Below, in pieces: positions 13,947-36,553 of a stretch of 64,000 nt of DNA. Where the stretch lies: positions 930,001 through 994,000 of the forward strand of contig NZ_JAFFSU010000001.1 in the NCBI RefSeq assembly GCF_017948455.1. Direction: 5' to 3'. The translations under genes and the position numbers were made by a program. The DNA comes from Streptomyces sp. GESEQ-4. GTDB taxonomy: Bacteria; Actinomycetota; Actinomycetes; Streptomycetales; Streptomycetaceae. Positions within the stretch are counted from its first letter, which is position 1, and each line of letters begins with the position of its first letter. The notes beneath the pieces are model-generated. The model did not search any database and was not told where the DNA came from. It worked only from the letters and a program-made list of their open reading frames with translations.

Positions 13947-15650
13947 TCATGCGGATTGCTCGCCTTCGGCCGTCGTGTCGGTGCCGTGGAGCATGGTGAG
14001 TTCGAGCCAGGAGAGGTTCTCGGGGTCGTGGTGGACCGTCTGTTCGGCCACGATCGGGACGCTTTCCTGGCCGATCGGGCCGCCGGTGTTGAGGTTGCGG
14101 TCGTACTGGGGGAAGTTGCTGCTGGAGACATGGATCCGCAGGCGGTGCCCGGCAGGGAGGCGCCAGGCCGTGTGCCCCAGGTCGAGGCGGAGCGTGCTGA
14201 CCGTCCCGGGCGTGAGGGGCCGTTCCGTGTCCGGTCCGTGGCGGTGGCGGGCCCGGGTGATGCCGTCGGCGACGAGCAGGGCGCGGCCGTCGGGGAGGAC
14301 GTCGAGGAGTTTGCCGGTGAAGTCGGTGTCGGGTGCGCTGCTTTCGACCGACAGCGCCAGCCGGACGGGGCCCGCCAGATCGAGGGTCTCTGTGAGCGGC
14401 TCGGAGGTGTAACTGAGCACGTCCAGGCGGTGTTCGAGATGGTTCTGGGCGAGCGGCCCGGGTACCAGGTCGCCCAGGTTGAGCACTCGTCCGCCGTGGC
14501 TGGGCACCGGGTCGGCCGGATCGTAGCGGTAGTGGGCGGGCGGCTCGTGCCGCTCGGGTGCGTTGCCCAGGATGCCGCCCTGCCGCAGGTACCACCGCCG
14601 GGTCACCGCGCGCGGCGGCGGCCACCGGGCGCTCGTACGCCACTGTCCCGCGCCCATGAGGAAGTACCGCACCCTTGGCAACTCCCGCTGTGCGCCGCGC
14701 AGATAGCGGTCGAAGAACGCCAGGTGCTGTTCGGCGAGCCCGCCGAAGCGCGCGGAGGAGGCCAGGCCGAAGTTCATCTCGCCCTGGATCGGCAGCAGTG
14801 AGCTCAGGTGGGCCCAGCTGCCCATGATCAGGTGGTGGTGGCCCGCGCGGGATGTCAGGTCCTGGTGCAGGGCGAGGGTGGCGGTGGCGTAGATGTCGTA
14901 CCAGCCGCTGAGGGAGAGCGTGGGGATGTCGATGTCCTCGGCGTGGACGTCCGGGATCTCGGTCTGGCCCGCGAGGACGTCCCTGAGCAGTGGGGGGAAG
15001 TCCTCCAGGTCGAGGATGTCGGTGAGGGGGAGCTGTTCCATCGCGCGCCGTGGATTCCTGGCGCAGTCCGCGATCGCCTCGATCGTCTTGCGCGGTGGCG
15101 GATCGCCGCCGGCCAGCCGGCGGCGCAGCCACTCCGGGGCCATCAACACCGCGGCCCAGCTGACCAGTTGGTCCAGGCGCAGTGCCCCGCCGGTGGCGCG
15201 GGCGTCGTAGTCGCCGACCGCGCACATGGCCGGGGCGATGGCACGCAGGTGCGGCGGGCGCAGCGCGGCGCCGACCCACTGCACGATGCCGAGGTAGGAG
15301 GGACCCACCATGCCGACGTTGCCGTCGCACCACGGGCGGGTGGCGATCCACTCGACGGTGTCGTGGGTGTCCAGCGCCTCCTGCCGCCACATGACCGGCT
15401 GCCAGTCGCCGTCGGAGGCGAACCGGCCCCGGCTGTCCTGGAGGACGACGGTGTAGCCGGCCTCCACGGCCAGGGCGGCGGGCAGGACGTCCAGCAGGGG
15501 CATCCGGCGTTTGTCGTAGGGGCCGCGGTAGAGCAGTGCGGGCGTGAGGCCGTCGGCGGGCGGGTGCCACACGTCGGCGCGCAGGACCACTCCGTCCCGC
15601 ATGGGGGCGGGCACGTCGCGCTCGATCGTCTCCGCCTGGGGTGCGGTCAT
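13947..15650 (-). CDS. CocE/NonD-family hydrolase (copy 1)
   Basis: A 567-residue serine hydrolase of the X-Pro dipeptidyl-peptidase/cocaine-esterase family, with an alpha/beta-hydrolase domain and a C-terminal jelly-roll. The nucleophile elbow is G-P-S-Y-L-G near residue 118. V-L-Q-D-S-R-G-R-F-A-S-D-G and the opening P-M-R-D-G-V-V-L-R-A-D-V are diagnostic. No signal peptide is seen, so it acts in the cytoplasm on an ester, amide or thioester. It is the last gene of the leftward six-gene operon and overlaps the ligase by ATGA. A second copy (26046-27725) begins the next operon across the divergent promoter and keeps the same order: CocE beside an acyl-CoA ligase. Confidence 0.92.
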   Translation of the reverse strand: MTAPQAETIERDVPAPMRDGVVLRADVWHPPADGLTPALLYRGPYDKRRMPLLDVLPAALAVEAGYTVVLQDSRGRFASDGDWQPVMWRQEALDTHDTVEWIATRPWCDGNVGMVGPSYLGIVQWVGAALRPPHLRAIAPAMCAVGDYDARATGGALRLDQLVSWAAVLMAPEWLRRRLAGGDPPPRKTIEAIADCARNPRRAMEQLPLTDILDLEDFPPLLRDVLAGQTEIPDVHAEDIDIPTLSLSGWYDIYATATLALHQDLTSRAGHHHLIMGSWAHLSSLLPIQGEMNFGLASSARFGGLAEQHLAFFDRYLRGAQRELPRVRYFLMGAGQWRTSARWPPPRAVTRRWYLRQGGILGNAPERHEPPAHYRYDPADPVPSHGGRVLNLGDLVPGPLAQNHLEHRLDVLSYTSEPLTETLDLAGPVRLALSVESSAPDTDFTGKLLDVLPDGRALLVADGITRARHRHGPDTERPLTPGTVSTLRLDLGHTAWRLPAGHRLRIHVSSSNFPQYDRNLNTGGPIGQESVPIVAEQTVHHDPENLSWLELTMLHGTDTTAEGEQSA

Positions 15651-17269
15651 GGCTGTCGGCTCCTCCCGAGGGACTCACGTTTGACCGTGATCCCGGCCTG
15701 CCGCCGGTCCCAGGTGTCGTCCGTCAGGCCCTCCGCGCGCAGCGCGTGCTTGAGCACCTTCGCGGTGGGTGTCTTGGGCAGTTCGTCCAGGACGCGGACA
15801 TAGCGCGGCACCATGAAGTGGGGCATGCGCGGGACGAGGTACTCGATCAACTCGGCCGGGTCGACGGCCCGGCCCGGTGCGGGGGCGACCGCGAGGAGGA
15901 CCTCGTCCTCGCCGTGTTCGCTCGGCACGGCCACCGCGGCCGACTCGCGCACCGCCGGATGGGTCATCGCCTCGGACTCCACTTCGAAGGAGGAGATGTT
16001 CTCCCCCCTGCGGCGGATCGCGTCCTTGAGGCGGTCGACGAAGAAGACCCGGCCCGCACCGTCCCGGCGCACCGCGTCCCCGGTGTGGAACCAGCCGTTG
16101 CGCCAGGCCGCGGCCGTCGCCTCCGGCATCCCGGGGTAGCCGTGAGACAGCGACCACGGCCGGTCGGCGCGCAGCACGAGCTCACCGCTGTGGCCCGGGG
16201 GCACCTGCCGGTCGTACGCGTCGACCACGCGGATCTCGATGCCGGGGCGCGGCGTTCCGCACAGTCCGCTCTCCTTCGGATCCGGCTCGGAGATCAGCGG
16301 GACCGATGTCTCGGTCATGTTGAACAGGGTGTGGACCTCGATGCCGAAGCGCTGCGACAGCTCAGCGCTGTTGTCGCCGAGCGGAAGCAACCACACCCAT
16401 TTCAGCGGGTGTCGGACGTCGCTTTCCGCCGGGTCGCGCGTGAGCAGGAAGGACGCCATGACGCCGAGCAGGGTGCAGCAGGTGACGCGGTGGGCCCGTA
16501 CGACGTCCCAGAACGCGTCGGTGGCGAAGGAGTCGACCACGAGAACGGACCCGCCGAGCAGCAGCATCGCGTACACCCCGATCGTCCCGCCCGCATGGAA
16601 CAGCGGCAGTTGGACGAGGTAGCGGTCCCCCTCCCCGGCCCGCCCGGCGAAGGCGGCGACGGCCGCTGAGTAGTGGTGGACGTAGGAGCACAGCACGCCC
16701 TTCGAGGGGCCGGTCGTGCCCGACGTGTAGATGATCCCGAACGTGTCCCAAGGCTCCGCTGGATACGGCTCGAAGCCGCCCGGATCGGCGTGGAGTTCCT
16801 GCGGGCCGACGACCGTGGGACGCCGGTCCCCGGGCTCGATCTCCGCCAGTCGCGGGGCGAGTTCGCGATGCGCGACGACCAGCGCCGCCCCGGAATTGGC
16901 CAGTACGTGCTCCAGCATCCGGCCCCGGTAGGCGGTGTTGACGGGTACGCAGGTCGCGCCCGCGAGGTTGGTGCCGAACCAGGCCAGCAGCGCGTCCGGC
17001 CCGTTGGGCAGCCACGAGAGCACGCGGTCGCCCGGTCGCACCCCGTGTGCCGCGAGGGCCGCCGCGGCGCCGAGCGAGCGCCGCAGGGTTTCGCCGTACG
17101 TCCAGCTCTCCCCGTCGGCGAAGACGGCGAAGACCCGGTCGGGGTGCGCGCGGGCACGGGCGGTGAGCAGTCCGGCGACCGTGCAGGACGCGGCGTCCGG
17201 CACCCGTGGATCGTCCATGGCCAGGATCCGGACCGGCGGAGTCATGACCGTATCCATCGGCGGTGTCAT
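15647..17269 (-). CDS. AMP-dependent acyl-CoA ligase (CaiC-like, copy 1)
   Basis: A 540-residue ANL-superfamily ligase that adenylates a carboxylic acid and transfers it to CoA. The P-loop is I-Y-T-S-G-T-T-G-P-S-K-G. Further motifs are F-N-M-T-E-T-S (A5), W-F-H-T-G-D-A (A7), F-V-D-R-L-K-D-A-I-R-R-R-G-E-N-I-S-S-F-E-V (A8) and K-V-L-K near the C-terminus with the catalytic lysine. It is closest in form to the crotonobetaine/carnitine ligase group. The ATG at 17269 overlaps the upstream stop as ATGA. A 24-bp tandem duplication at this junction adds M-T-P-P-M-D-T-V to the N-terminus. It is paired with CocE and resembles the ligase at 27722. Confidence 0.93.
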   Translation of the reverse strand: MTPPMDTVMTPPVRILAMDDPRVPDAASCTVAGLLTARARAHPDRVFAVFADGESWTYGETLRRSLGAAAALAAHGVRPGDRVLSWLPNGPDALLAWFGTNLAGATCVPVNTAYRGRMLEHVLANSGAALVVAHRELAPRLAEIEPGDRRPTVVGPQELHADPGGFEPYPAEPWDTFGIIYTSGTTGPSKGVLCSYVHHYSAAVAAFAGRAGEGDRYLVQLPLFHAGGTIGVYAMLLLGGSVLVVDSFATDAFWDVVRAHRVTCCTLLGVMASFLLTRDPAESDVRHPLKWVWLLPLGDNSAELSQRFGIEVHTLFNMTETSVPLISEPDPKESGLCGTPRPGIEIRVVDAYDRQVPPGHSGELVLRADRPWSLSHGYPGMPEATAAAWRNGWFHTGDAVRRDGAGRVFFVDRLKDAIRRRGENISSFEVESEAMTHPAVRESAAVAVPSEHGEDEVLLAVAPAPGRAVDPAELIEYLVPRMPHFMVPRYVRVLDELPKTPTAKVLKHALRAEGLTDDTWDRRQAGITVKRESLGRSRQP

Positions 17270-17288
17270 GACCGTATCCATCCGCCGT
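17241..17288. repeat. 24-bp imperfect tandem duplication at SDR/ligase junction
   Basis: GTCATGACCGTATCCATC occurs at 17241 and again at 17265; the 24-bp units differ only in their last bases (GGCGGT against CGCCGT). The copy repeats the last codons of the SDR gene, so the ligase has two M-D-T-V-M-T-P-P-like start regions and several possible ATGs. Confidence 0.85.
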
Positions 17289-18003
17289 CGACGAACAGGC
17301 ACTGACCCGTCACATAGCTCGCCTCGGCGGAGGCCAGCCATGCCACGGCCGCCGCCACCTCCTGCGGAGTGCCGAAACGGCTGATCGGCTGGGTGCGTAC
17401 GTGCTTCTCGCCGATCCGGACGAGGTCCTCGGCCATGGCGAGCATGGGCGTGTCGACGAAGCCCGGGCAGACGGCGTTGGCGCGCACGCCGGCCGGGCCC
17501 AGCTCGGCCGCGAGGGACCGCGTGAGGGTGGCGAGACCGCCCTTGGACACGTCGTACGCCACCTGTCCGACGTTGCCGATCATCGCCACGGAGGAGAGGT
17601 TGACCACCGCGCCGCCGTCGGCCCGGGCGAGCAGGGCCGCGGCGCGGCGCGACAGGAAGAAGGGCGCGTGCAGGTTGACGGACAGCACCTTGTGCCAGAT
17701 CTTCGGCGTGTGGTCCGCGAGCGTTCCGCGGAACCCGATGCCCGCGTTGTTCACCAGCACATCGAGTCCGCCCCAGGCCCGCTCGACGCGGTCCACCACG
17801 TCCTGGGCCTGCTCCTCGTGGGCGATGTTCGCCGGTACGGCGAGTCCGCCCACCTGCGCGGCCATGCGCTCGGCGGCCTCCTCGTCGATGTCGTTGACCG
17901 CGACCGTCGCGCCCTCCTCGGCGAGCCGGGTGACGATCGCCGCGCCGATGCCCCTGCCACCGCCGGTGACCAGCGCGGTGCGTCCCTTGAACAGTTCGTT
18001 CAT
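17266..18003 (-). CDS. SDR-family oxidoreductase (FabG-like)
   Basis: A 245-residue classical short-chain dehydrogenase. The cofactor motif is T-G-G-G-R-G-I-G near residues 13-20. N-N-A-G is near 86 and the active site has S-S near 137 with Y-D-V-S-K near 150. D-I-D after strand 2 points to NAD(H) rather than NADP(H). The C-terminus V-D-G-G-W is standard. It would interconvert a 3-hydroxyacyl-CoA or alcohol with its ketone. It overlaps both neighbours by ATGA within the thiolase-to-CocE operon. Confidence 0.93.
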   Translation of the reverse strand: MNELFKGRTALVTGGGRGIGAAIVTRLAEEGATVAVNDIDEEAAERMAAQVGGLAVPANIAHEEQAQDVVDRVERAWGGLDVLVNNAGIGFRGTLADHTPKIWHKVLSVNLHAPFFLSRRAAALLARADGGAVVNLSSVAMIGNVGQVAYDVSKGGLATLTRSLAAELGPAGVRANAVCPGFVDTPMLAMAEDLVRIGEKHVRTQPISRFGTPQEVAAAVAWLASAEASYVTGQCLFVDGGWIRS

Positions 18004-19124
18004 TCGTAGCTCCCCACGAGTCGCTCCAGTGCTTGGAAGTGCCTCTCGTGCCTGCTGGCCGTCGCGTAGTCCACCGGGCGCCGCCGCGTGAGCGCCGCTT
18101 CGAGTCCGGTGTGCGTGGCCGGGTTGCGTACGGTCAGCAGCAGGGCGTCGCTGCCCGCGCCGCAGCCGTAGCCGAGGACCGCGATCCGGTCGCCGGGGAG
18201 GGCCAGCTCCAGTGCCCGGGCAAGTCCCAGCAGAGGTGCCGCCGCGCCCGTGTCGCCTATGCCGTGCGCGACGACGCAGGGCAGGGCGGAGCGGTCGGGC
18301 TGGCCGAGACGCCGGGCCAGCCGGATCGGGGTGATGGCGTCCGGCTGCGGGCCGGCCAGGAAACGCAACGGCTTGCTGGGCGGGCCGAGTTGTTCCCAGG
18401 CGGTGACGCAGTGGTCGTACAGCCCGATGTCGGTGGCCGTCATCACCGCCCCGCCGGTGCGGATGTGCCGCTCGCCGTCGGCGCGGAAGCCGTCGTTGGT
18501 GTCGGAGACCGCCGAGCCGACGGCGTCCACGGTGGCCAGCGTGGCGTCGCGGGTGACCAGGAGTGCCGCCGCTCCGGAGCCCGCGGTGTACTCCTGCGGA
18601 TCGCCCGGCGCGATATGCGGTCCCAGCGTGTCCGTCCCCACCGCCAGCGCCGCCTCGGCGAAGCCGGCCCGCACCCAGGCCAGCGCGCACAGCAGGGCGG
18701 CCGTCCCGGACTTGCCGGAGAACTGCACGTCGGCGGCGAAGGACGCGGGCGGCAGGCCGGCCATGTCGGCCAGCAGCGCCGCACTGGCCTTGGTGAGGTA
18801 CGGGCCGGTCTGCGAGCCGAAGAAGACCGCCTGCGGTGTCGCGGACGCCTCGCGCAGGGCGACGGCCGTGGCCTCGGCCGCCAGCGTCACCGCGTCCGCG
18901 TCGGGGTCGCACACGGCGCGGTGGGTGACGCCCTTGCGCCGCACCACGTCCAGCGGCACATTCCGCCACACCTCGTGGATCTCCTCCACGGCGAGCCGGC
19001 CGGCGGGGAGCGCCGTGCCGATCGCGGAGATCCCCACGTCGTGCGGGGCGGGACCGGGCGTGTTCCCGGCGGCGTCGGTGACGTCCACGGGGATGCCGGT
19101 GAGCCGGGGCCAGTCGCCGCTCAT
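18000..19124 (-). CDS. HMG-CoA synthase-like thiolase-fold protein lacking the catalytic Cys
   Basis: A 374-residue protein of the archaeal-type HMG-CoA synthase group. Members form complexes with a thiolase and a DUF35 protein, and both genes lie directly upstream. The segment aligned with the nucleophile (F-A-C-K-A-G-T in archaeal enzymes) reads F-S-G-K-S-G-T here, so the cysteine is glycine. The rest of the fold looks intact: G-T-A-L-P-A at the N-terminus, A-V-G-T-D-T, Y-T-A-G-S-G-A-A-A-L-L and H-G-I-G-D-T-G-A-A-A-P. It may be a structural or substrate-channelling partner, as in the PhlA-PhlC-PhlB acetyltransferase complex. That reading is inference. It overlaps both neighbours. Confidence 0.85.
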   Translation of the reverse strand: MSGDWPRLTGIPVDVTDAAGNTPGPAPHDVGISAIGTALPAGRLAVEEIHEVWRNVPLDVVRRKGVTHRAVCDPDADAVTLAAEATAVALREASATPQAVFFGSQTGPYLTKASAALLADMAGLPPASFAADVQFSGKSGTAALLCALAWVRAGFAEAALAVGTDTLGPHIAPGDPQEYTAGSGAAALLVTRDATLATVDAVGSAVSDTNDGFRADGERHIRTGGAVMTATDIGLYDHCVTAWEQLGPPSKPLRFLAGPQPDAITPIRLARRLGQPDRSALPCVVAHGIGDTGAAAPLLGLARALELALPGDRIAVLGYGCGAGSDALLLTVRNPATHTGLEAALTRRRPVDYATASRHERHFQALERLVGSYE

Positions 19125-19606: not shown

Positions 19607-20794
19607 TCAGCGTGGGCGCCGCAGCACGGCGACGGCGCTGGTGGCGTTGGAGCCGCCCATGGACTGGCAGACCGCGATCTCCGCGTCCGGCACCTGGCGT
19701 TCCCCGCACCGGCCCCGCAGTTGGAGTGCCGACTCCACGGCGACGCTGATCCCGGTGGCACCGGTGGGATGACCGAGGCCGATCCGGCCGCCGTCGGTGT
19801 TGGCGGGGCAGCGGCCCTCCAGCGCCGTCTCCCCGTCGGCCACCGCCGCCGCGGCCTTGCCCGTGGGGAAGATCCCCAGCCCCTCCAGGTGCAGCGCGCC
19901 CATCACGCTGAAGCAGTCGTGCACCTGGGCCAGATCGATGTGCTGCGGCTCGATGCCGGCCTGCGCATAGGCGGCCTTGGCGGCCACCGCCGTCGGCACC
20001 GCCTCGGCGATGTCGGCGCCCGCAGAGGCCGGATGGCCGAACTTCGCGGCCAGGACGTTGGGCCCGGTGGCCTGCGCGATGCCCGCGATCTCCACCGGCT
20101 CGCACGCTCCCGGAGTGTCGTCGCGGCGCATCAGCACGACCGCCGAGGAACCGTCACAGGCCCGTCCGCAGGCCGCCCGCGTGATGGGCCGCGACACCAT
20201 GGGACTGTCGAGGACCTGCGGCACGGTGAGTTCGGGCCGCCCGTGATCGACGGCGTTCGGGTTGCGTGTGGCGTACCAGCGGTCCTGTACGACCCACTGG
20301 GCGATCGCCTCGTGCGTGGCGCCGTACTTGCGCATGTACTGGTCCTGCATCAGCGCCATGAGGTCGACGTAGTCGAAGCCCGCCGGCGCCTCGAACTCGG
20401 CGTCGGGGAAGTGCAGCATCGAGTCGGCGGTCGACGCCGTGTCCGACACCTTCTCCACGCCGATGACCAGCACGGCCCGCGCCATGCCGGCGGCGAGGGC
20501 GGCCACGGCGCCGCGCAGGGCCACCGTGCCTCCGGCGCAGGCGGCGTTGACCTGGCTGAAAGCCCTCGGGGCGAGGCCGAGTTCGTCGGCGGCTACGGCA
20601 CCGAGGTTCTGCTGCTCGAACGTCTCCGGCAGCGATACCGACACAAAGCCGTCGGTGATGTCCCCGGCGTCGAGGCGCGCGTCCTCAAGGGCCGAGAACG
20701 CGGACTCGACGACGAGGTCCTTCCAGTCCCGCGCCGGGAAGAAGCCGTGCCGCGTGATCGCGGCGCCGGCGATGACAACTCCCGTTCCATCCAT
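19607..20794 (-). CDS. Thiolase (SCP-x/lipid-transfer type)
   Basis: A 395-residue thiolase of the SCP-x/acetyl-CoA acetyltransferase-like group that works with DUF35 proteins. The nucleophile is in N-A-A-C86-A-G-G. V-H-D-C-F and G-L-G-H-P-T-G-A-T-G hold the two histidine-containing loops, and C-Q-S-M-G-G lies at the position of the second cysteine region. Its possession of the cysteine separates it from Ltp2-type aldolases. It should cleave or form a beta-ketoacyl-CoA together with DUF35 and the HMGS-like protein. It is the first gene of the leftward operon; the palindromic operator ends 24 bp upstream of its ATG. Confidence 0.92.
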   Translation of the reverse strand: MDGTGVVIAGAAITRHGFFPARDWKDLVVESAFSALEDARLDAGDITDGFVSVSLPETFEQQNLGAVAADELGLAPRAFSQVNAACAGGTVALRGAVAALAAGMARAVLVIGVEKVSDTASTADSMLHFPDAEFEAPAGFDYVDLMALMQDQYMRKYGATHEAIAQWVVQDRWYATRNPNAVDHGRPELTVPQVLDSPMVSRPITRAACGRACDGSSAVVLMRRDDTPGACEPVEIAGIAQATGPNVLAAKFGHPASAGADIAEAVPTAVAAKAAYAQAGIEPQHIDLAQVHDCFSVMGALHLEGLGIFPTGKAAAAVADGETALEGRCPANTDGGRIGLGHPTGATGISVAVESALQLRGRCGERQVPDAEIAVCQSMGGSNATSAVAVLRRPR

Positions 20795-24052: not shown

Positions 24053-25056
24053 CCGTCTTCTGCCCGCCCGTCCAGCTCGCCGGGATCGGCCACGACTTCC
24101 CCGGAGAGCCGGTCCGCAACGACCACTTCACCAGCAGGCCCGAACTGGGCGTGGACGAGGAGTGGATCCTGCGCCACACCGGCGTCGCCGCCCGGCACTG
24201 GCCGCCGGAGGGCGAACGGCACGTGGACATGGCCGAGCGCGCCGCCCGCCGGGCGCTCGCCGAGGCCGAGCTGGACCCCGGCGACATCGACGTCATCCTC
24301 GGCACGAGCGCCACCGCGCGCCCCCGCGTCAATCCCACGAGCCCCGGCAACAACTACATGGACGTCGCCCTGCCGGTGCAGCGCCGCCTCGGCGCCCCGA
24401 AGGCGATGTGCCTGGACGTGACCGGCGTCGCCTGCTCCGGCTTCCTGCACGCCTCCGCCGTCGCCCGCGGCCTCATCGCCACCGGCCACCGCACCGTCCT
24501 GATCGTCTGCGCCGAGAACCCCCGGCCGATCCTCAACTTCTCCTACCGCAACTCCGTCCTGTTCGGCGGCGGCGCCGCCGCGGGCGTGTGGCGGGCGAAC
24601 CCCGGGTCGGACGACGGTCTGCACGCCGTGACACTGCACTCCGACGCCACCCACTACGACGCCTTCGACATCGACGAGCACGACACGATGGTGATGAAGG
24701 GGAAGGTCGTCGGCGAGTTCGCGCCCGGCGTGCTGGCGGACGCGACCCGGCGGGTTCTGCGGCAGGCGGACGCCGACCTCGACGACGTCGACTGGATCAT
24801 CCCGCACCAGGGCAACATCAACCTGATCCACGACGTGCAGGACGCCCTCGGCATCCGCGACGACAAACGCGTGCTGCTCAACATCGAGCGGCGCGGCAAC
24901 ACCTCCAGCGTCAGCGTGCCCAGCTGTCTGTCGGAGTACGTCCACGACGGCACGATCGCGCGCGGCGACCGCATCCTGAGCATGGCCATCGGCCGCGGTT
25001 TCAGCTGGGGCGCGATGCTCTTCAGCTACGGCCGCCCCCGCCCGTGGGAGCAGTGA
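24049..25056 (+). CDS. KAS III-like condensing enzyme (copy 1)
   Basis: A 335-residue FabH-fold protein with a complete triad: C129 in T-G-V-A-C-S-G-F, H253 in I-I-P-H-Q-G-N, and N284 in R-G-N-T-S-S. Family members prime with an acyl-CoA or transfer acyl groups to oxygen or nitrogen nucleophiles. Lys/Arg residues for ACP docking cannot be judged by eye. The G-R-G-F-S-W-G-A C-terminal loop is conserved. Its start overlaps the CoA-transferase stop and its stop overlaps the SDR start (TGATG). It belongs to the same superfamily as the protein at 29323 but is clearly divergent from it. Confidence 0.93.
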   Translation: MTVFCPPVQLAGIGHDFPGEPVRNDHFTSRPELGVDEEWILRHTGVAARHWPPEGERHVDMAERAARRALAEAELDPGDIDVILGTSATARPRVNPTSPGNNYMDVALPVQRRLGAPKAMCLDVTGVACSGFLHASAVARGLIATGHRTVLIVCAENPRPILNFSYRNSVLFGGGAAAGVWRANPGSDDGLHAVTLHSDATHYDAFDIDEHDTMVMKGKVVGEFAPGVLADATRRVLRQADADLDDVDWIIPHQGNINLIHDVQDALGIRDDKRVLLNIERRGNTSSVSVPSCLSEYVHDGTIARGDRILSMAIGRGFSWGAMLFSYGRPRPWEQ

Positions 25057-25847: not shown

Positions 25848-25897
25848 ACCGGCGGGCTCCACTGGTGGGCTCCACTTCAACTCCCTTGAGCCGGTGA

Positions 25898-29326: not shown

Positions 29327-30330
29327 CCGACACGGCAGTTGGACCCATCCGCAGCGGAGGAACCTGGGCGGGGGCCGGAATCCGCATCACCGGCGTCGGG
29401 CACTACTTCCCCGAACGCGTCGTGCACAACACGCCGGACGCCGTCGGCGCCGAGGAGCGGTTCAACGCGATCGACCAGGCCGTGATCGGCCGGCTGAACG
29501 TCAAGTCGCGGCACGTCGCCGACGAGGCGGAGACCATCGACTACATGGCCGTCCGCGCGGCCGAGCACGCCCTGCGCGAGGCCGGCCGCACCGCGCGCGA
29601 GGTCGACCTGGTCATCGTCACCAACTGGACCGACCGGCAGTTCATCCCCGAGTACGGCCCCACAGTGGCGCACGAGCTCGGTGCCCGCTGCGCCCTCGGC
29701 TTCGACCTGTGCGGGGCCTGCGCCGGATTCGTGCACGGGGTGCAGTCCGCCGCCGCGATGCTGTCCTCGCCCGGCCCCTGGCGCACCGCCGTCGTCGTCA
29801 GCTCCGAACAGCTCTCGCGCGGCACCCGGCCGGGCAGCAAGGGCGAGCTGGTCGCGGGCGACGCGGCGGGAGCCGTCGTCCTGGAACGGACCGACGGCCT
29901 CGCGCCCACCGCCCCACGGCTGATCGACTCCGTGCTGTTCAGTGACGGCGAGGACGCGCGCGTCATCCACGCCCGCCGTCCCAACGGCTGGCTCACCAGC
30001 ACCCCCGACCTCATCGAGCGGGCCATCGAGGGCAATCTGCGGGCCATCGAACTCCTCCTGGAACGCAACGGCCTGGAGATCGAGGACATCGACTGGGTGC
30101 TGATCCACCCCGGCACCGACCCGCTGCACACCGCCGTCCAGGAGAAGGCCGGCATCGACCCCGACCGCTTCGTGGTCACGATGGAGACGCGCGGCAACAC
30201 CTCCAGCGCCTCCATCCCCATCGCCCTGTCCGAGCTGATCGACAGCGGCCGCACCCGCCCGGGCCAGCTGTACCTCACCCCGGCGATCGGCTCCGGGTTC
30301 TACGAGGGCGGGCTGCTGTTCCGGCTGTGA
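29323..30330 (+). CDS. KAS III-like condensing enzyme (copy 2)
   Basis: A 335-residue FabH-fold protein with triad C133 (D-L-C-G-A-C-A-G-F), H262 (L-I-H-P-G-T-D-P-L) and N292 (T-R-G-N-T-S-S). The H-P-G-T-D loop differs from the H-Q-A-N of housekeeping FabH, as seen in many specialised-metabolism members. The W-T-D-R-Q-F-I-P-E-Y-G-P segment is unlike copy 1, so different substrates are likely. Its start overlaps the ligase stop, and 22 bp separate it from the first unusual KAS. Confidence 0.92.
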   Translation: MTDTAVGPIRSGGTWAGAGIRITGVGHYFPERVVHNTPDAVGAEERFNAIDQAVIGRLNVKSRHVADEAETIDYMAVRAAEHALREAGRTAREVDLVIVTNWTDRQFIPEYGPTVAHELGARCALGFDLCGACAGFVHGVQSAAAMLSSPGPWRTAVVVSSEQLSRGTRPGSKGELVAGDAAGAVVLERTDGLAPTAPRLIDSVLFSDGEDARVIHARRPNGWLTSTPDLIERAIEGNLRAIELLLERNGLEIEDIDWVLIHPGTDPLHTAVQEKAGIDPDRFVVTMETRGNTSSASIPIALSELIDSGRTRPGQLYLTPAIGSGFYEGGLLFRL

Positions 30331-30352
30331 GCTCGGACTGCCCAGGCCATCA

Positions 30353-31750
30353 ATGTCCCTTGAACGGAAGCGAGTTGACGTGGTGAGTGTGACGGCCGGA
30401 TGGCGCGACGTGCTGGTGACCGGCATGGGGTTCTGCCTGCCCGGACCCCACCGCACGGTCTGCCGGACCGGCGGCGACCTGTGGCGTACGGTGTCCCGCG
30501 CGGCGTCCCACCTGGACAACGACGGCCTGTTCTACGGCCGGGTCCACCTGACCGAGGAGGAGTTCGCGGCGGCGGTCCCCGAACTCGACGAACGCTTCCG
30601 GGCCCACTACAACGACGTCCACCGCTACGGCCTCGTCGCCCTGGTCGAGGCCTGTGAGGACGCCGAGCTGAACTGGCGCGGCAACGACCTCGCCGAGGCC
30701 GCGGTCCTCACCGGGCGCGCCGGGTTCGACACGATCCTGGAGACATACATGGCGGGCGTGACCGCCGAGCCCTCACGGACCGAACCCGCCGAGGCCCGGT
30801 CACTGCTGATGCGCATCCTGCTGTCCGTCACCGCGACCGACGTGGCCTCGGTGCAGGCCGCCCTGCTGCGCAGCGGCGGCCCCAGCTACTCCCTGTCCTG
30901 CGGCTGCGCCTCCACCAACGCGCTGCTCGGCGTCGCCGCCCAGCAGATCGCCTCCGGCGAGGTGGACCTCGCCGTGGTCACCGGCGTCGACGCGTACAGC
31001 CTCGACTACATCGACCACTTCGAGGAACTGGGCCGGGCCTCGGAACGGACCGGCCGCACCTCCTCCTACGCGGCCCCGACCACCCGACTGCGCTACGACC
31101 GCCCGATGCGCCCCTACGACGAACGCGCCGAGGGCTTCAACCTCGGCGAGGGCGCCGCCACCCTGATCCTCGAGAGCCGCGAGCACGCCGAACGCCGCGA
31201 CCGTCGGCCCTACGGGCGGATCCTCGGCCAGGCCGTCCGGCGTGCCGCCACCGGCAGCGCACTCACCCCCGACGAGGACGGCGCCGCCCTCGTGCGCGCG
31301 GTGCGCAGCGCCCTGCGCGCCACGGACAGCCACGAGCGGATCGACCCCGCCACCGTCCCCGTCGTCAACGGCGGCGCCGAGGGCGACCCGCTCTTCCACC
31401 TCATGGAGTTCAGCGCCCTGCGCGCCCTCTACGGCACGGACCCGGCCGACGGGCCGCTGCTGACCAACCACGAGGCGTGCTTCGGGCACAACGGCGCACC
31501 GCTCGGCGTCATCGGCGCCGCCGCCACCCTGCTGATGATGCGCAACGGACAGGTCGGCCCCACCGCGAACTGCGAGAAGGTCGTCCCCGACGCTCCCTGC
31601 ACGGTCGTCACCGGCGAGGCCCGGCCGCTCTCCTTCGACCTGGCCCTGAGCTTCAACTACCAGATGGGCGCCGCCGGCGCGCTGCTGCTCGCGGCACCGG
31701 AACCCTGCGGCGCGGAGTACGGACACCCGGCGGGTGACGATGAGCACTGA
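30353..31750 (+). CDS. KAS-like protein with altered active site (member 1 of pair)
   Basis: A 465-residue KAS-fold protein (or 456 residues if translation begins at the GTG at 30380, which has GGAAG upstream). The nucleophile region S-L-S-C-G-C185-A-S-T keeps a cysteine. The first active-site histidine motif H-G-T-x-T is replaced by V-V-N-G-G-A-E-G-D. The second histidine survives in L-T-N-H-E-A-C-F-G-H-N-G-A, but the usual lysine of K-x-x-x-G-H is asparagine. It is thus neither a standard KAS nor a standard chain-length factor, which loses the cysteine. The next gene shows the same pattern, so they may form a heterodimer. Confidence 0.85.
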   Translation: MSLERKRVDVVSVTAGWRDVLVTGMGFCLPGPHRTVCRTGGDLWRTVSRAASHLDNDGLFYGRVHLTEEEFAAAVPELDERFRAHYNDVHRYGLVALVEACEDAELNWRGNDLAEAAVLTGRAGFDTILETYMAGVTAEPSRTEPAEARSLLMRILLSVTATDVASVQAALLRSGGPSYSLSCGCASTNALLGVAAQQIASGEVDLAVVTGVDAYSLDYIDHFEELGRASERTGRTSSYAAPTTRLRYDRPMRPYDERAEGFNLGEGAATLILESREHAERRDRRPYGRILGQAVRRAATGSALTPDEDGAALVRAVRSALRATDSHERIDPATVPVVNGGAEGDPLFHLMEFSALRALYGTDPADGPLLTNHEACFGHNGAPLGVIGAAATLLMMRNGQVGPTANCEKVVPDAPCTVVTGEARPLSFDLALSFNYQMGAAGALLLAAPEPCGAEYGHPAGDDEH

Positions 31751-32999
31751 GCCGCTGACCCTGACCGGCATCGGTGCCGTCCTGCCCGGCCCCGACGGAC
31801 GGCCCTGCACCGACGTCCCGGCCCTGTGGGACATCATCCGCACCGGCGCCACCTGCCTGACGCCCTTCGCCCTCGACGACCTCCCGCTGCGCATCGCGGG
31901 GCAGGTCACCGGCTGGGACCCGGTGACGGCACTCGGCGTGCCCCAGCGGGTCGGCGACCGGATGGCCCGCGTCACCGCACTCGCCACCGGCGCCGTCAAG
32001 AACGCGCTCGCCGACGCCGGGCTGACGGCCCCGGACATCGACGACGGCCGTACCGTCCTCGTCGTCGCCTCCCTGCAGTTCGCCTTCCAGGAGGCACGCC
32101 GCTACTTCACGCTGTACGAGCGGGGCGGCCCGGACGCGCTCGGCATGGAGTACTGGCTCACCGGCACCCCCGGAAGCGTCACCAGCGGCATCTGCTCGGT
32201 CCTCGGCATCGGCCCGCAGACCCTGACCGTCTCCGGCGCCTGCAACTGCTCCCTGCGCGCCCTGGAGGTGGTGGCCGCCCTGCTGCGCGACGGCAGCGTG
32301 GACCGGGCGATCGTCGTCGGCGCGGACGCCACCCTCGACCCGGTCTGCGTCTCCAGCACCACGCACGAGAGCCGCAGCCGCGGCTTCCGCATCTCCACCT
32401 GGTCACCGGACCCGCGCTCCGTACGCCCGCACGACGAGGAGCAGGACGGCAACGCCCCCGGCGAGGGCGCCCTGGCCGTCGTACTGGAATCCGGTCGTAC
32501 GGCCGGTATCCCGCTGCGCCTCGCGTTCCGCTCCTCGCGCAGCAACGGCACCAACCCGATGATCTCCGGACCACCCGACAACTTCGCCCGGGACGGACAC
32601 GCCCTGCTCACCGCCGCCGGCATCGGCATGGACCGGCTGGCCTTCGTCAACAGCTTCGCCGACGGCTCACGCCACGTGGAGAACCTCTTCTGCGAGGCCC
32701 TCGACGGCCTGCGCAAAGCGATGGACTACGACGGCCCGCTGCTGCTGACCAACCAGGAGGCCGCCTTCGGGCACGTCTTCGGCTTCGTCGGGCTGATGAA
32801 GTTCGTCGCCTCGGCCCTCATGTTCCACCACGGCACGGTCGCCCCCGTGACCGGCTGCCGCACTCCCTACGCACGGCTCGACGCGACCCCGGTCCACGGC
32901 GACCGCGCCCCGCTGACCGGGCGGCACGCCCTCGTGATGGTGGCGGGCGGCGGGGGAGACGCCACGTCCCTGCTGATCGAGCACCTGGAGGAACGATGA
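31740..32999 (+). CDS. KAS-like protein with altered active site (member 2 of pair)
   Basis: A 419-residue KAS-fold protein. The cysteine position is kept in T-V-S-G-A-C168-N-C-S-L. The H-G-T motif is replaced by F-V-N-S-F-A-D-G-S-R-H. The second histidine remains in L-T-N-Q-E-A-A-F-G-H-V-F-G, again with asparagine instead of lysine. The shared L-L-T-N-x-E-A-x-F-G-H and V-N-x-x-A-x-G motifs show it is a sister of the preceding protein. I prefer the ATG at 31740, inside the last codons of the upstream gene; a GTG at 31734 would also work. It overlaps the double SDR gene by ATGA. Confidence 0.83.
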   Translation: MSTEPLTLTGIGAVLPGPDGRPCTDVPALWDIIRTGATCLTPFALDDLPLRIAGQVTGWDPVTALGVPQRVGDRMARVTALATGAVKNALADAGLTAPDIDDGRTVLVVASLQFAFQEARRYFTLYERGGPDALGMEYWLTGTPGSVTSGICSVLGIGPQTLTVSGACNCSLRALEVVAALLRDGSVDRAIVVGADATLDPVCVSSTTHESRSRGFRISTWSPDPRSVRPHDEEQDGNAPGEGALAVVLESGRTAGIPLRLAFRSSRSNGTNPMISGPPDNFARDGHALLTAAGIGMDRLAFVNSFADGSRHVENLFCEALDGLRKAMDYDGPLLLTNQEAAFGHVFGFVGLMKFVASALMFHHGTVAPVTGCRTPYARLDATPVHGDRAPLTGRHALVMVAGGGGDATSLLIEHLEER

Positions 33000-34456
33000 C
33001 CAAGGACCCGCTGCCGATCCACGGCTCCACGGCGGTCGTCCTGGGGCCGCGCGGGACGGCGTACGACGTCCTCCGCGAGGCCTTCGAAAGCGTCGGCGTG
33101 AAGCTCGTCGACGACACCGGTGGGCAGGACGTGGCGGTCCCCGACATCTCCTGCGCCCTGCTCACCGGCACCGCCGTCCTCGACAGCGCCACCCCGTCCG
33201 CGCCCCTGCCGCGCAGGACGCTCTCACGGATCGCCGCGGCCATGGCGGACCGCGGATCGGGCCGGATGATCCTCGTCCTGGACGGGGCAGGAGGACTGCA
33301 CACCGGCGTCCCGGCCGACGAGACGGCGGCGCGGGCAGCCGACCTGGCCTGGTGGCGGCAGCTCGCGGCCCGTCTGTCCCGCCACGGCGTCCTCGCCAAC
33401 CAGATCCGCGTGGGTATCGCTCCCTGCCTCTCGCACCGGCCCGGTCCGCAGCGCACCGCCGCCGTCCTGCGCCACCTGCCCCTGCGCCGCGTCGCCCAGC
33501 CCGCGGACCTGGCCGCCGCCGTCCTGCATCTGGCGTCGGAGGGCTGCACCTACACGGTGGCCGAGACGATCCCGGTCGACGGCGGCATGGGACTGACGAT
33601 GGTCCCGCCCCTGCGCCCGTCCCGCGCACGCACCGACAGCACGGAACCCTTCGACCGGTCACGGGGCGGAGTCGAGCTGTTCGACCTGCGCGGACGGCAC
33701 TGCCTGGTCGTCGGCGGGAGCAGCGGCATCGGACGGGAGGCGGCGCTGGAGCTGGCGCGGCGGGGTGCCGACATCACGGTCGTGGCGCGGCGCGAGCGCG
33801 AAATCCTCGCCGTGGCCGACGAGATCGGCGCCCTGGGCCGTCGTGCCGAGGCCGTGCGCCAGGACGTGTCCCAACTCGACGCGCTCGAGCCGCTGGTGGA
33901 GAGGCTGTGGTCCGCCGCGCGGATCGACGCCCTGGTGTACGCGACCGGATTGTGCGAACCGGAGGACCCGGGGGACCAACCCGCCCTGCGAGAGCGGGCG
34001 TTGGACGTCAACTACCGGGGTTACGTGACCCTCACCGACGCGCTGGTACGACGCTGGGCCAGTGACCGGCGCGGCGGCGCTGTCGTCGCGATCGGCTCCG
34101 CCGGGGCGGGCTTCGTGCCCGGGCTGGAGAGTTACGCCGCGAGCAAGGCGGCCCTGATCCAGCACACCCGGAGCCTCGCCGTCTCCGGAGGCCGCCACCG
34201 GATCCGGGCCAACTGTGTGCAGCCCGGCCTGATCTCCACCCCGATGGCCGACGCGTCGGCGCACGAAGGGTTCCAGGACGCGTGGCTCGCCCGGATTCCC
34301 CAGGGCAGGGCGGGCCTGCCGGGCGATGTGGCGCCGCTCGTGGCCTATCTGGCGTCGGACGCGTCCGCGTACGTGACGGGTGCGGTCCTGCATGTCGACG
34401 GCGGCCTCGCCCTGGGCGGACTGCCACCGCTGGCCGGGAACGGGGGCCTGGCATGA
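32996..34456 (+). CDS. Tandem SDR fusion, N-terminal domain degenerate
   Basis: A 486-residue protein with two SDR-like domains. The first (about 1-215) begins T-A-V-V-L-G-P-R-G-T-A-Y-D in place of the T-G-x-x-x-G-x-G loop and has no Y-x-x-x-K. It does keep the C-terminal SDR feature V-A-E-T-I-P-V-D-G-G-M. The second (about 228-486) is a complete SDR: V-V-G-G-S-S-G-I-G, G-S-A-G near the catalytic serine, Y-A-A-S-K and H-V-D-G-G. It probably has one active and one structural half. ATGA overlaps link it to the KAS-like gene and the next SDR. Confidence 0.88.
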   Translation: MTKDPLPIHGSTAVVLGPRGTAYDVLREAFESVGVKLVDDTGGQDVAVPDISCALLTGTAVLDSATPSAPLPRRTLSRIAAAMADRGSGRMILVLDGAGGLHTGVPADETAARAADLAWWRQLAARLSRHGVLANQIRVGIAPCLSHRPGPQRTAAVLRHLPLRRVAQPADLAAAVLHLASEGCTYTVAETIPVDGGMGLTMVPPLRPSRARTDSTEPFDRSRGGVELFDLRGRHCLVVGGSSGIGREAALELARRGADITVVARREREILAVADEIGALGRRAEAVRQDVSQLDALEPLVERLWSAARIDALVYATGLCEPEDPGDQPALRERALDVNYRGYVTLTDALVRRWASDRRGGAVVAIGSAGAGFVPGLESYAASKAALIQHTRSLAVSGGRHRIRANCVQPGLISTPMADASAHEGFQDAWLARIPQGRAGLPGDVAPLVAYLASDASAYVTGAVLHVDGGLALGGLPPLAGNGGLA

Positions 34457-35226
34457 GCACCGCTGGGTTCTCCGGAGTGGCGGTGGTGACCGGCGCCTCG
34501 TCGGGCATCGGAGCGGCCGTCGCCCGGGCGCTGGCCGATGCCGGGGCGCACGTCGTCCTGGTCGCGCGGCGCATCGAGCCGCTGTCCCGGGTGGCCGAGG
34601 AGGTGCACTCCCGCGGCGGCCGGGCGAGTGTCCTCGCCGCCGACCTGGCCGCCGAGGGCGAGCCGGAGCGCGCGGTCGCGCAGACCGTGGAACTGTTCGG
34701 TGCCCCCACGTCGCTGGTGCACTGCGCCGGCGTGGTGCGGCTCGCCCAGGTCCACGAACTTCCGCCCAGGCACTGGGAGTTGATGATCCGCCTCAACCTC
34801 ACCGTGCCGTATCTGCTGTGCCACGCGGCACTGCCGTACATGCGCAAGAACGGCGGAGGGACGATCGTGCACATCGGCTCCTCCATCACCCGCGAGACGC
34901 TCAGCCACACCGCGGGCTACGCCGTCAGCAAGCAGGGCCTGAACGTGCTCAGCGAGCTGGTGGCGCTGGAGAACCGGGACCACGGCGTGCGGGCCGTGGC
35001 GATCTGCCCCGGCTGGGTGCGTACGGAGCTGTCGGCCGATCCCGACGAACTGGGCGTGGGCGCAGAGGAGTTGCTCACCCCCGAGGACGTGGCGGAGACC
35101 GTGCTGTGGGCGGTGACCCGGCCGCCACGGGTGAGCGTGGGCCCGGTCCTCCACGTGAGTCCCACGACCAGCCGGGCCGGCACCCGTGCGTCGATCACCC
35201 GGCTGACCGGTGACCGGGAGGGATGA
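34453..35226 (+). CDS. SDR-family oxidoreductase
   Basis: A 257-residue classical SDR with V-T-G-A-S-S-G-I-G at residues 12-20, A-R-R after strand 2 (NADPH-type), H-C-A-G in place of N-N-A-G, a catalytic serine in G-S-S-I-T and Y-A-V-S-K. The C-terminal part after P-G-W-V-R-T lacks the usual D-G-G and instead ends T-S-R-A-G-T-R-A-S-I, so the tail differs from FabG-type enzymes. It overlaps the double SDR by ATGA and lies 3 bp from the CoA-transferase-like gene. Confidence 0.92.
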   Translation: MSTAGFSGVAVVTGASSGIGAAVARALADAGAHVVLVARRIEPLSRVAEEVHSRGGRASVLAADLAAEGEPERAVAQTVELFGAPTSLVHCAGVVRLAQVHELPPRHWELMIRLNLTVPYLLCHAALPYMRKNGGGTIVHIGSSITRETLSHTAGYAVSKQGLNVLSELVALENRDHGVRAVAICPGWVRTELSADPDELGVGAEELLTPEDVAETVLWAVTRPPRVSVGPVLHVSPTTSRAGTRASITRLTGDREG

Positions 35227-35229
35227 GAC

Positions 35230-35904
35230 ATGTCCGCTCTCCAAGGCGGCGCCCGTCTTCCGGATCTCGCGACGGCTCTCACGACGGCTCCACTCAAAGG
35301 ACTGAGGGTCGTCGATCTGGCACCACCGGGCGACACATCCCTGTGCGGGGTGCTGCTTGCCGGCCTCGGCGCCGAGATCGTGCTCGACGACAGGCTCGCG
35401 GACGCCGAGGCGCTGCTCGAACTCGCCGCCGGCGCCGACATCGTGGTGGAATCACCGGCCGACGCCCGGGGGCCCGGCCCCGAACGGTGCCTGGCCCGCA
35501 ATCCGCGGCTCGTCTACGGACGTACGACCATGGCAGGCGCCGCCGACGATCCGGCAGCCGCGCTGCACCTGGCGGTGGCCGTGCTGGCGGCACTGGCACG
35601 GGCGGCGCGCACCGGGGAGGGCGGGATCGTCGACGACACCCTCGTGGGCTGCCCGTTCTACGCCGTCTATCGCACCGCCGACGGTCACCGGATGGCAGTC
35701 CGCGCCCTGGAACCGGACGGCTACCGGGAGCTCGTCCGGCTGCTGGGCGTCTGGGAGATGGTGCCCGATCACCGGGACCCCTCGGTCTGGGCGGAGCTGA
35801 GACGCCTCTTTACCGGCGTCTTTCGCACGCGGACCAGACAGGAATGGCGTGAGGTGTTCGACGGCACCGATGCGTGCGTGAGCCCCGTCCCGCCCTTCGA
35901 ATGA
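35230..35904 (+). CDS. Shortened CaiB/BaiF (family III CoA-transferase)-like protein
   Basis: A 224-residue protein that keeps pieces of the family III CoA-transferase fold: L-K-G-L-R-V-V-D-L near residue 23, L-A-G-L-G-A-E-I-V, N-P-R-L-V-Y-G-R-T, G-E-G-G-I-V-D-D, D-G-H-R-M-A-V-R-A and R-T-R-Q-E-W-R-E-V-F-D. Full members have about 380-400 residues, so large parts of the central domain are missing. V-D-D could hold the aspartate used by alpha-methylacyl-CoA racemases. It may be a compact racemase-like enzyme or a decaying gene, but the frame is open and it follows a normal start (GAGGGATGAGAC-ATG). Confidence 0.75.
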   Translation: MSALQGGARLPDLATALTTAPLKGLRVVDLAPPGDTSLCGVLLAGLGAEIVLDDRLADAEALLELAAGADIVVESPADARGPGPERCLARNPRLVYGRTTMAGAADDPAAALHLAVAVLAALARAARTGEGGIVDDTLVGCPFYAVYRTADGHRMAVRALEPDGYRELVRLLGVWEMVPDHRDPSVWAELRRLFTGVFRTRTRQEWREVFDGTDACVSPVPPFE

Positions 35905-35932: not shown

Positions 35933-36553
35933 TCACGCGGACAACGCCGACTGGTCGAGGAAAAGTTCTCTGCGGTTGCGGATTCCGACCTTGTGCAGAA
36001 TATTGCTCACATGGTTTTTGACGGTCTGTCCGGCCAGGGTCAGCTCGCGCGCGATCTCGTCATTCGTATAGCGCCGCAGCAGGAGTGCGAGAATCTGTTC
36101 CTCCCGCTCGGTCAGTGGCGTGAGCGGAGAAATGCGGCGGCGGTCCGACTCCTGTCGCCGGCCCGTGTCGCCGAGCAGCCAGACGCGCCGGCCACACGCG
36201 GTCTGCCGGATCGCGTCGACCAGCTCGGTGACGGAGGCGCTCTTGTGGACGAAGCTGTCCGCGCCGGAGGTCAGGGCAGCGGCGACCTGGTCGGGAGAGC
36301 AGCTGCCGGAGAAGACCATGACCCGCGGCCGCAGCGGTAGTGACCTCGCGCGCCGGCACAGCGCGGCACCCTCGTGGGCGGCGCCGAGCTCCAGCTCTGT
36401 CACGACGATGCTGGGACGCTGACTCAGCAGCGCGGCGTAGGCCTGCTCCGCGGTCGCCGCTGAACAGATGACGGGCATGCGGAGATGGGATTCGACCAGT
36501 GTGCTGAGTGCCAGACGCATGGAAGGGTGGCTGTCAACGATCATCACGCCCAT
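35933..36553 (-). CDS. Orphan LuxR-type response regulator with Glu at the phosphorylation site
   Basis: A 206-residue NarL/FixJ-type regulator. The receiver (1-120) starts I-V-D-S-H-P, where normal receivers have V-D-D-H-P. The phospho-acceptor position is Glu53 (V-V-T-E-L-E-L-G) instead of Asp. The later S (V-F-S-G) and Lys (V-H-K-S) are kept. The LuxR HTH (L-T-E-R-E-E-Q-I-L-A-L-L through V-K-N-H-V-S-N-I-L-H-K-V) is intact. No histidine kinase lies nearby. It is convergent to the rightward operon and is a candidate pathway regulator that works without phosphorylation. Confidence 0.92.
   Translation of the reverse strand: MGVMIVDSHPSMRLALSTLVESHLRMPVICSAATAEQAYAALLSQRPSIVVTELELGAAHEGAALCRRARSLPLRPRVMVFSGSCSPDQVAAALTSGADSFVHKSASVTELVDAIRQTACGRRVWLLGDTGRRQESDRRRISPLTPLTEREEQILALLLRRYTNDEIARELTLAGQTVKNHVSNILHKVGIRNRRELFLDQSALSA

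Follow-up and report, generated by a model that had tools for sequence, protein, structure and literature searches.

A probable nonactin-type, acyl carrier protein-less ketosynthase cluster in Streptomyces sp. GESEQ-4 with an added thiolase, DUF35 and HMGS-like operon

The closest described systems to the gene cluster examined here are those for nonactin, dinactin and pamamycin, which are represented below by excerpts of the papers cited. In these excerpts, the nonactin polyketide synthase (PKS) is presented as a set of five type II ketosynthases (KSs) and four ketoreductases that lacks an acyl carrier protein (ACP) (PMC10817512). The same PKS is called ACP-less elsewhere (PMC4979870; PMC8621525), and its intermediates are described as bound to coenzyme A (CoA) (PMC4979870). 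Formation of C-O bonds is assigned to NonJ and NonK (PMC10006239; PMC9582728). The dinactin cluster of Streptomyces globisporus SCSIO LCY30 comprises ten open reading frames (ORFs) in 12.0 kb, with ORFs 4, 5, 9 and 10 corresponding to homologues of NonS, NonL, NonJ and NonK, respectively (PMC10817512). In pamamycin, two hydroxy acids are assembled (PMC10644645).

Here we compare these systems with a cluster in a 64,000-nucleotide stretch of Streptomyces sp. GESEQ-4 (contig NZ_JAFFSU010000001.1, positions 930,001 to 994,000), which we call the window and whose numbering is used throughout. The core of this cluster probably belongs to the macrotetrolide (nonactin) type, a group of ACP-less, non-iterative type II PKSs. 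Our best reading, to which we assign a probability of about 0.7, is that the locus encodes a CoA-based pathway to a hydroxy-acid oligoester made from two monomers and devoid of tetrahydrofuran rings. The ACP-less design is already known from nonactin. What is new are the variant features, namely a trio of thiolase, DUF35 and 3-hydroxy-3-methylglutaryl-CoA synthase (HMGS)-like genes, doubled ligase/CocE cassettes, a linked importer, and the absence of NonS and one reductase.

Genes were called by codon usage and assigned to families by Pfam and NCBIfam profile scans (Table 1). Two operons diverge from each other. The minus-strand operon, running from 20794 down to 13947, encodes in order the thiolase, the DUF35 protein, the HMGS-like protein, a short-chain dehydrogenase/reductase (SDR), an acyl-CoA ligase and a CocE hydrolase. 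The plus-strand operon (21081-35904) begins with a ketoacyl synthase (KAS), a CoA-transferase, a KAS III, an SDR, a second CocE and a second ligase, and continues with a second KAS III, two unusual KS-like proteins (KS-like 1 and KS-like 2), a double SDR, a further SDR and the remnant of a CaiB-type gene. A first-pass annotation, made from the letters of the stretch and a list of its open frames, had named all of these classes except the DUF35 protein, and each class that it named, including the seven thiolase-fold proteins, is present at or near the position it gave. Its range of 13947-36553 also takes in a LuxR-type regulator. Judging from the sequences, the gene set is not a chance assembly, because conservation of the cluster extends to other species and purifying selection acts on its genes.

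A search of 41 genomes with KS-like 2 identified two close orthologues, one in the same genus (G005, 54% identity) and one in the same order (G037, a Catenulispora, 52%). At both loci, every plus-strand gene but CaiB (11 of 12) is conserved, with 42-58% identity. A scan of named sequences located the orthologous cluster at 17 loci, 13 in Streptomyces and one each in Saccharopolyspora indica, Catenulispora rubra, a metagenome-assembled genome (MAG) of the Streptosporangiaceae and Mediterraneibacter agrestimuris. The usual order in these relatives is KAS, CoA-transferase, KAS III a, KAS III b, SDR, SDR, KS-like 1, KS-like 2, followed by double SDR, SDR, CocE, ligase, enoyl-CoA hydratase (ECH), hydrolase, MarR and amidohydrolase, and it is near-constant among loci that are neither cut nor rearranged. 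Loci L023, L024 and L034 end at contig edges (the contig of L023 was read further via G408), and the stretches retrieved for L025, L038 and L039 contain neither ligase nor CocE. In the window, one CocE and ligase pair precedes KAS III b; the single cluster ligase of the relatives is 52-58% identical to the better match of the window's two ligases. Within the genus, KS-like 2 is found at E <1e-60 in 9 of 392 sampled genomes, that of the window included; in this and the other searches of genus, class and family samples, the best 4-5 candidates per genome were scored. A plasmid-borne element was considered and rejected, as a tblastn search with KS-like 2 against 72,556 plasmid records gave no match at 1e-30.

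Several of these loci have features of their own. The Mediterraneibacter cluster (L038; NZ_CALPDG010000014.1, 1943-14847) places homologous KSs in a gut Firmicute of 33% GC, with identities of 44% for KAS, 46, 48 and 38% for KAS III, and 39% and 32% for the KS-like proteins. It is adjoined by a carboxyltransferase, an acyl-CoA dehydrogenase, an acetyl-CoA hydrolase-type gene and an ABC transporter, and it has no ACP gene, the three PF00550 matches of that genome lying on other contigs. Of 397 genomes sampled from its family, one has the cluster; therefore, horizontal transfer is likely. In S. megasporus (L037, 13793-17302), CocE and ligase were called as a single frame of 1169 amino acids, a possible natural NonD-NonL fusion. 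The CoA-transferase, a fused protein elsewhere, lies in two frames in G005 (L018/L019; 28095-28745 and 28829-29836 of the joined stretch), reflecting either a split or a frameshift. In the Streptosporangiaceae MAG (L039) the cluster is rearranged; it has two double-SDR genes, and its amidohydrolase adjoins KS-like 2.

The relatives also suggest an identity for the two KS-like proteins. In S. globisporus JCM 4378, ten ORFs fill the 12,044 bases that reach from KS-like 1 to the amidohydrolase. When these are numbered from the amidohydrolase, ORF 4 is the ECH, ORF 5 the ligase, ORF 9 KS-like 2 and ORF 10 KS-like 1. These positions match those of the published dinactin ORFs and we therefore infer, from position, count and length, that KS-like 2 is the NonJ orthologue and KS-like 1 the NonK orthologue. 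The family name CocE/NonD presumably refers to a macrotetrolide gene as well. The first-pass annotation had known of no described cluster with this gene set and had named a match to a known cluster as grounds for refutation. That claim of novelty is not supported for the core, for which such a match was largely found in the macrotetrolide (nonactin) core.

Active-site residues are consistent with a division of labour among the condensing enzymes. Columns were read from joint alignments of 19-21 sequences per family, with duplicate loci (G059, G302, G185, L033 and L023) left out and with score and length limits applied; the KAS III a of S. scabichelini is a contig-edge fragment. The KAS retains Cys-His-Lys-His in 19/19 sequences, and the KAS III proteins retain Cys-His-Asn in all 41 (21/21 for a and 20/20 for b). 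KS-like 1 carries Cys-Gly-Glu-His in 20/20 sequences and KS-like 2 carries Cys-(Phe/Tyr)-Glu-His in 20/20. Thus all 40 KS-like sequences keep the Cys and the last His, lose the first His, and replace the Lys with Glu. The Thr two residues past the first His is also replaced, by Glu (17), Gln (2) or Asn (1) in KS-like 1 and by Asp (16) or Glu (4) in KS-like 2. In KSs, the first His and the Lys serve the decarboxylation of malonyl units. The two KS-like proteins lack both residues and retain the nucleophile, and therefore a predicted role in acyl transfer to a hydroxyl group fits them better than decarboxylative condensation. Structure models of both match FabF-type KSs at the level of the fold; model quality is weak for KS-like 1 (pLDDT 71.8) and poor at residues 202-239 of KS-like 2. 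As far as we have seen, this signature of Lys-to-Glu replacement and loss of the first His in a KS pair is new, although no dedicated literature search was made. An invariant change of this kind in NonJ/NonK-type KSs would amount to a simple rule for the switch of a KS from C-C to C-O bond formation.

The first-pass annotation had also described the locus as probably CoA-based and as lacking an ACP, an acyltransferase and a thioesterase, and this description is supported. The 9.24-Mb genome holds 25 PF00550 matches, none of them in the window, and the two on the same contig are each more than 800 kb distant. A carrier-protein hidden Markov model (HMM) built from 13 seeds was run on frames of at least 40 amino acids from 80 sources at E up to 1. 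It recovered all seeds and 5/5 held-out carrier-protein loci, and additionally hit a frame next to an unrelated KS locus (L013), but it found nothing in the window or at any cluster locus scanned. Likewise, the cluster stretches of G005 and G037 contain no PF00550 match among the matches listed. Pfam and NCBIfam scans of the 20 proteins encoded at 12765-36553 returned no acyltransferase family and no thioesterase family over its cut-off; the lipase at 12765-13679 has a palmitoyl-protein thioesterase match just below threshold (26.3 bits versus 26.8).

These absences could also mean that the cluster is ACP-less in gene content only and that the housekeeping fatty-acid ACP serves it in trans. 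Some of the 25 carrier-protein matches are indeed small stand-alone frames, and the excerpts on the related pamamycin pathway have it using the ACP PamC (PMC8176718; PMC10644645). We consider this explanation unlikely because no homologous cluster locus scanned, that of the Firmicute included, carries an ACP gene, because ligases and a CoA-transferase indicate CoA thioesters, and because the excerpted nonactin literature describes CoA intermediates. A CoA-based, ACP-less condensing cluster agrees with both the relatives and the published homologous system.

The DUF35 protein, overlooked at first, changes the meaning of the thiolase and HMGS-like genes that flank it, each of which the first-pass annotation had counted as a condensing enzyme in its own right. 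The HMGS-like protein scores best with PhlA (228 and 212 bits), followed by archaeal HMG-CoA synthase (HMGCS; 147 bits), and its catalytic Cys and Glu positions are occupied by Gly and Gln in 4/4 orthologues. An independent HMG-CoA synthase is rejected on these grounds. PhlA likewise has Gly at the catalytic Cys position in the excerpts (PMC6392133). The thiolase scores highest against acetyl-CoA acetyltransferase (202 bits), followed by archaeal thiolase (168) and PhlC (142). In an alignment read by eye, it keeps two (Cys88 and His347) of the eight PhlC pocket residues, which are given as His56, Asn87, Cys88, His144, Tyr298, His347, Ser349 and Asp352 (PMC6392133). By analogy with these systems, the trio probably forms one complex with one working active site, and its sequence makes a CoA thiolase-type enzyme more likely than an aryl C-acyltransferase.

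The trio defines a subtype of four species. Its HMGS-like gene is carried by two of the 392 genomes sampled from the genus (that of the window and Streptomyces genome G105) and, within a class sample of 394, by one genome (that of the window only); S. albicerus and S. scabichelini have it as well, and it was not found in the Saccharopolyspora, Catenulispora or Streptosporangiaceae MAG relatives. Both genus-sample genomes are among the nine with KS-like 2 (p = 0.0005 if the two were independent, uncorrected for kinship), and in 4/4 cases found the trio adjoins the core. G105, S. albicerus and S. scabichelini all have the trio, its SDR, ligase 1, CocE 1, the lipase and the Liv importer beside the core. 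The two ligase copies form two separate four-species clades, as do the two CocE copies, and the Liv importer directly adjoins the cluster in 4/4 members (64-80% identity). Judging from the open-licence literature, we would tentatively regard this subtype as absent from print; a search of it gave nothing on the species S. albicerus.

From the homology, synteny, residue patterns and absences observed, we infer the following catalytic steps and product. The CoA-transferase and the two NonL-type ligases would load acids onto CoA, and the KAS and two KAS III enzymes would each perform one decarboxylative condensation on CoA thioesters, with a succinyl-CoA-type starter and malonyl- or methylmalonyl-CoA as the substrates expected by analogy with nonactin. 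SDRs would then reduce the ketones. In the step specific to the subtype, the complex of thiolase, DUF35 protein and catalytically dead HMGS, with its own SDR, ligase and CocE, is predicted to yield a second, different acyl-CoA monomer whose C-C bond would form without decarboxylation. The presence of two ligase/CocE cassettes, one of them linked to the trio, suggests the use of two monomers, by analogy with the two hydroxy acids of pamamycin. The NonK/NonJ pair would move each acyl group from its Cys to the hydroxyl of a second unit, generating esters and finally the macrocycle, with no decarboxylation expected, and the two CocE/NonD hydrolases may trim or recycle oligoesters. The Liv importer could supply branched-chain amino acids that feed extender units, since valine feeding raised pamamycin titre about threefold in S. 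albus (PMC8176718). NonS is absent from the window lineage and therefore no NonS-made tetrahydrofuran rings are expected in its product. The complete scheme, in which an all-CoA line makes one hydroxy acid with KSs and another with the thiolase and joins and cyclizes them through the KS pair without such rings, is put forward tentatively.

Were this scheme true, it would define a macrolide class that has no NonS-made tetrahydrofuran rings and whose second monomer is built by the added thiolase set without a carrier protein. The comparison ties an orphan cluster to a PKS system that is among the few for which operation without an ACP has been reported, and it extends that system well past nonactin producers, to one gut Firmicute among others. 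In a strain survey, default antiSMASH missed the nonactin cluster (PMC8621525), and clusters of this kind are therefore probably under-counted.

Besides an ACP acting in trans, several observations weigh against the oligoester reading. The NonJ and NonK assignments come from gene order, size and count, and not from the NonJ and NonK sequences. The thiolase resembles an ordinary thiolase and keeps only two of the PhlC pocket residues, so its substrate is a guess. One excerpt counts two KSs and two ketoreductases for nonactin, and not five KSs (PMC8621525). A diverged Liv operon (25-44%) also lies about 12 kb past the G005 cluster, and for this reason only the close Liv linkage is specific to the subtype. 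We know of no product for any of the four subtype members.

Gene losses count on the same side. Among actinobacterial clusters outside the window group in which the relevant part is sequenced, NonS-type genes are present in 15/15 and the reductase SDR258 in 16/16; the window, S. albicerus, S. scabichelini and Mediterraneibacter are excluded from both counts, and the cut locus L034 is also excluded from that for NonS. G105 has two NonS-type genes, one next to each ligase/CocE pair (one copy being 54-67% identical to other cluster NonS-type genes), together with SDR258, a NonR-like hydrolase (39% to the G005 hydrolase) and an exporter whose ATPase and permease are 60% and 41% identical to those of G005. 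However, in the genomes of the window strain, S. albicerus and S. scabichelini, no close NonS was found (best matches 34-38%, with the window genome's match of 38% located outside the cluster), nor was SDR258 at 1e-40 (150 of 160, 186 and 213 candidates were scored in the three genomes) or the exporter permease. The NonR-like hydrolase seen in G105 and in clusters of the S. griseus type is missing from the window cluster, as is the MarR gene, and the CaiB-type gene is truncated to 224 amino acids from the 376 found in G105. The segments missing from CaiB presumably include the position of the family's catalytic Asp. An annotation error was rejected as the cause, because S. albicerus has a similarly short frame with matching internal gaps. 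At the limits used, NonS and SDR258 are both missing from the Mediterraneibacter cluster.

The lack of NonS, SDR258 and the exporter permease, and the conservation within the subtype of the Liv importer along with two esterases and two ligases, are also what a catabolic or salvage system would show. In such a system, the Liv importer would take up a compound, CocE and lipase would open its esters, the acids would be activated by ligases and CoA-transferase, and their cleavage would fall to the thiolase complex. The first-pass annotation had left such a role open. It survives as the weaker and, in our view, improbable reading because the decarboxylating residues of the KAS and KAS III enzymes are intact and the homologues are biosynthetic. 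All five condensing enzymes are kept under purifying selection, the homologous core corresponds to a published biosynthetic cluster, and no acyl-CoA dehydrogenase domain was found among the 26 proteins scanned at 6065-36553. Absence of the exporter permease says less, because none was found in Saccharopolyspora or in the Catenulispora and MAG stretches either. The NonR-type gene is lacking at the Saccharopolyspora and Catenulispora loci as well, and for the biosynthetic reading, these absences in relatives are neutral to slightly favourable.

The same losses, together with that of much of the CaiB gene, might instead mark a nonactin-type cluster that is decaying and functionless in the window lineage. 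This possibility appears very improbable. Of 25 genes tried, three lacked a counterpart in the S. albicerus contig and one lacked it in the G105 stretch. All 22 genes comparable with S. albicerus have dN/dS values of 0.17-0.37 and open frames, the CaiB remnant (0.30) included, and against G105 the values for 24 genes are 0.10-0.58, with the lipase highest. Moreover, the same reduced set is common to three species. The lineage therefore seems to be altered, not decayed.

Remaining features of the region concern single proteins or neighbouring genes. The ExG motif of the CoA-transferase is present in 18/19 cluster homologues. The orthologue of the Amidohydro_2 gene at 6065-7114 adjoins the TetR gene in S. 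scabichelini (80% identity), and none was found in the G105 stretch. Just downstream of the cluster, positions 36998-40703 encode a TetR regulator, an SDR, an ordinary thiolase, which brings the thiolase-fold proteins to eight, and an ECH with 39-43% identity to ECH genes that precede KAS at some nonactin-type loci; no such module was seen in the other subtype loci read. A LysR regulator, a terpene synthase and a cytochrome P450 at 2642-6033 probably form a separate terpene cluster, and a P-type metal ATPase with an HMA domain and a small HMA protein at 41609-44223 are probably a copper efflux pair.

Table 1. Genes of the cluster and its flanks, in window coordinates
Feature	Position	Strand	Remarks
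Amidohydro_2 protein	6065-7114	-	45-52% to orthologues in nonactin-type clusters
TetR regulator	7331-8002	+	Syntenic in G105 and S. scabichelini
Liv-type branched-chain amino-acid ABC importer	7972-12631	-	LivF, fused permease/ATPase, permease, binding protein
Lipase_2 / alpha-beta hydrolase	12765-13679	-	Kept in subtype, 49-69%
CocE/NonD family hydrolase, copy 1	13947-15650	-	Pfam/NCBIfam
NonL-type acyl-CoA ligase, copy 1	15647-17257	-	Pfam/NCBIfam
SDR of trio operon	17266-18003	-	78-85% to other three subtype members
PhlA/HMGS-like subunit, predicted scaffold	18000-19124	-	Catalytic Cys to Gly, Glu to Gln
Zinc-ribbon and OB-fold (DUF35/ChsH2/PhlB-like; zf-ChsH2) subunit, 150 aa	19121-19573	-	Pfam
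Thiolase subunit (PhlC/archaeal acetoacetyl-CoA thiolase type)	19607-20794	-	Nucleophilic Cys and catalytic His retained
KAS (FabF type)	21081-22373	+	Cys-His-Lys-His complete
Fused two-domain class I CoA-transferase (glutaconate CoA-transferase-like)	22370-24052	+	Glu of ExG motif retained
KAS III a	24049-25056	+	Cys-His-Asn
SDR a	25056-25847	+	Pfam
CocE/NonD family hydrolase, copy 2	26046-27725	+	Pfam/NCBIfam
NonL-type acyl-CoA ligase, copy 2	27722-29326	+	Pfam/NCBIfam
KAS III b	29323-30330	+	Cys-His-Asn
KS-like 1 (putative NonK orthologue by position)	30389-31750, start possibly 30353	+	Cys/Gly/Glu/His
KS-like 2 (putative NonJ orthologue by position)	31734-32999	+	Cys/Phe-Tyr/Glu/His
Double SDR	32996-34456	+	Second domain: best match is to SDR families
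SDR b	34453-35226	+	Pfam
Family III (CaiB) CoA-transferase remnant	35230-35904	+	224 aa versus 376 aa in G105
LuxR-type response regulator	35933-36553	-	Cluster-linked in relatives

Compared with known systems, the locus is most like the nonactin and dinactin clusters, with which it shares five KS-fold enzymes, ketoreductases, a CoA-transferase, a NonL-type ligase, a CocE/NonD hydrolase, an amidohydrolase, the predicted NonJ and NonK orthologues and the lack of an ACP. As in that group, discrete type II and type III KSs (a KAS, two KAS III and two KS-like proteins) are encoded in one operon. It differs in its forward-moved CocE and ligase, its second ligase/CocE pair, its added thiolase/DUF35/HMGS-like genes and its adjoining Liv importer; NonS and one reductase are absent from the genome, and MarR and NonR-type genes from the cluster. 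S. griseus-type loci also carry an ABC-2 type exporter permease that the window lacks, a feature that is not universal in the group.

Pamamycin resembles the predicted product as a macrodiolide of two different hydroxy acids made, according to the excerpts, by the same class of non-iterative KSs. However, identity with the pamamycin cluster is rejected, as none of the 20 proteins encoded at 12765-36553 corresponds to the ACP PamC, the aminotransferase PamX or the methyltransferase PamY. The unusual KS-like pair recalls AmcF-AmcG of the cispentacin KS-CYF system, and weak matches to the AmcF model were obtained, but at 103 and 76 bits these fall far below the cut-off of 325 and the AmcFG reaction runs on an ACP, so that a KS-CYF of this type is likewise rejected. 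In contrast to classical type II PKSs with a KS and a chain length factor (KS/CLF), both KS-like subunits keep their Cys and there is no ACP. The trio shares with PhlACB, the 2,4-diacetylphloroglucinol C-acyltransferase, its three-gene set of thiolase, zinc-ribbon OB-fold protein and HMGS-like protein and the Gly in place of the catalytic Cys, although its thiolase is without six of the eight PhlC pocket residues. The archaeal acetoacetyl-CoA thiolase/HMGCS/DUF35 complex has the same three components, and the window thiolase scores higher against its thiolase than against PhlC, but the Cys and Glu of the archaeal HMGCS are replaced by Gly and Gln in the window.

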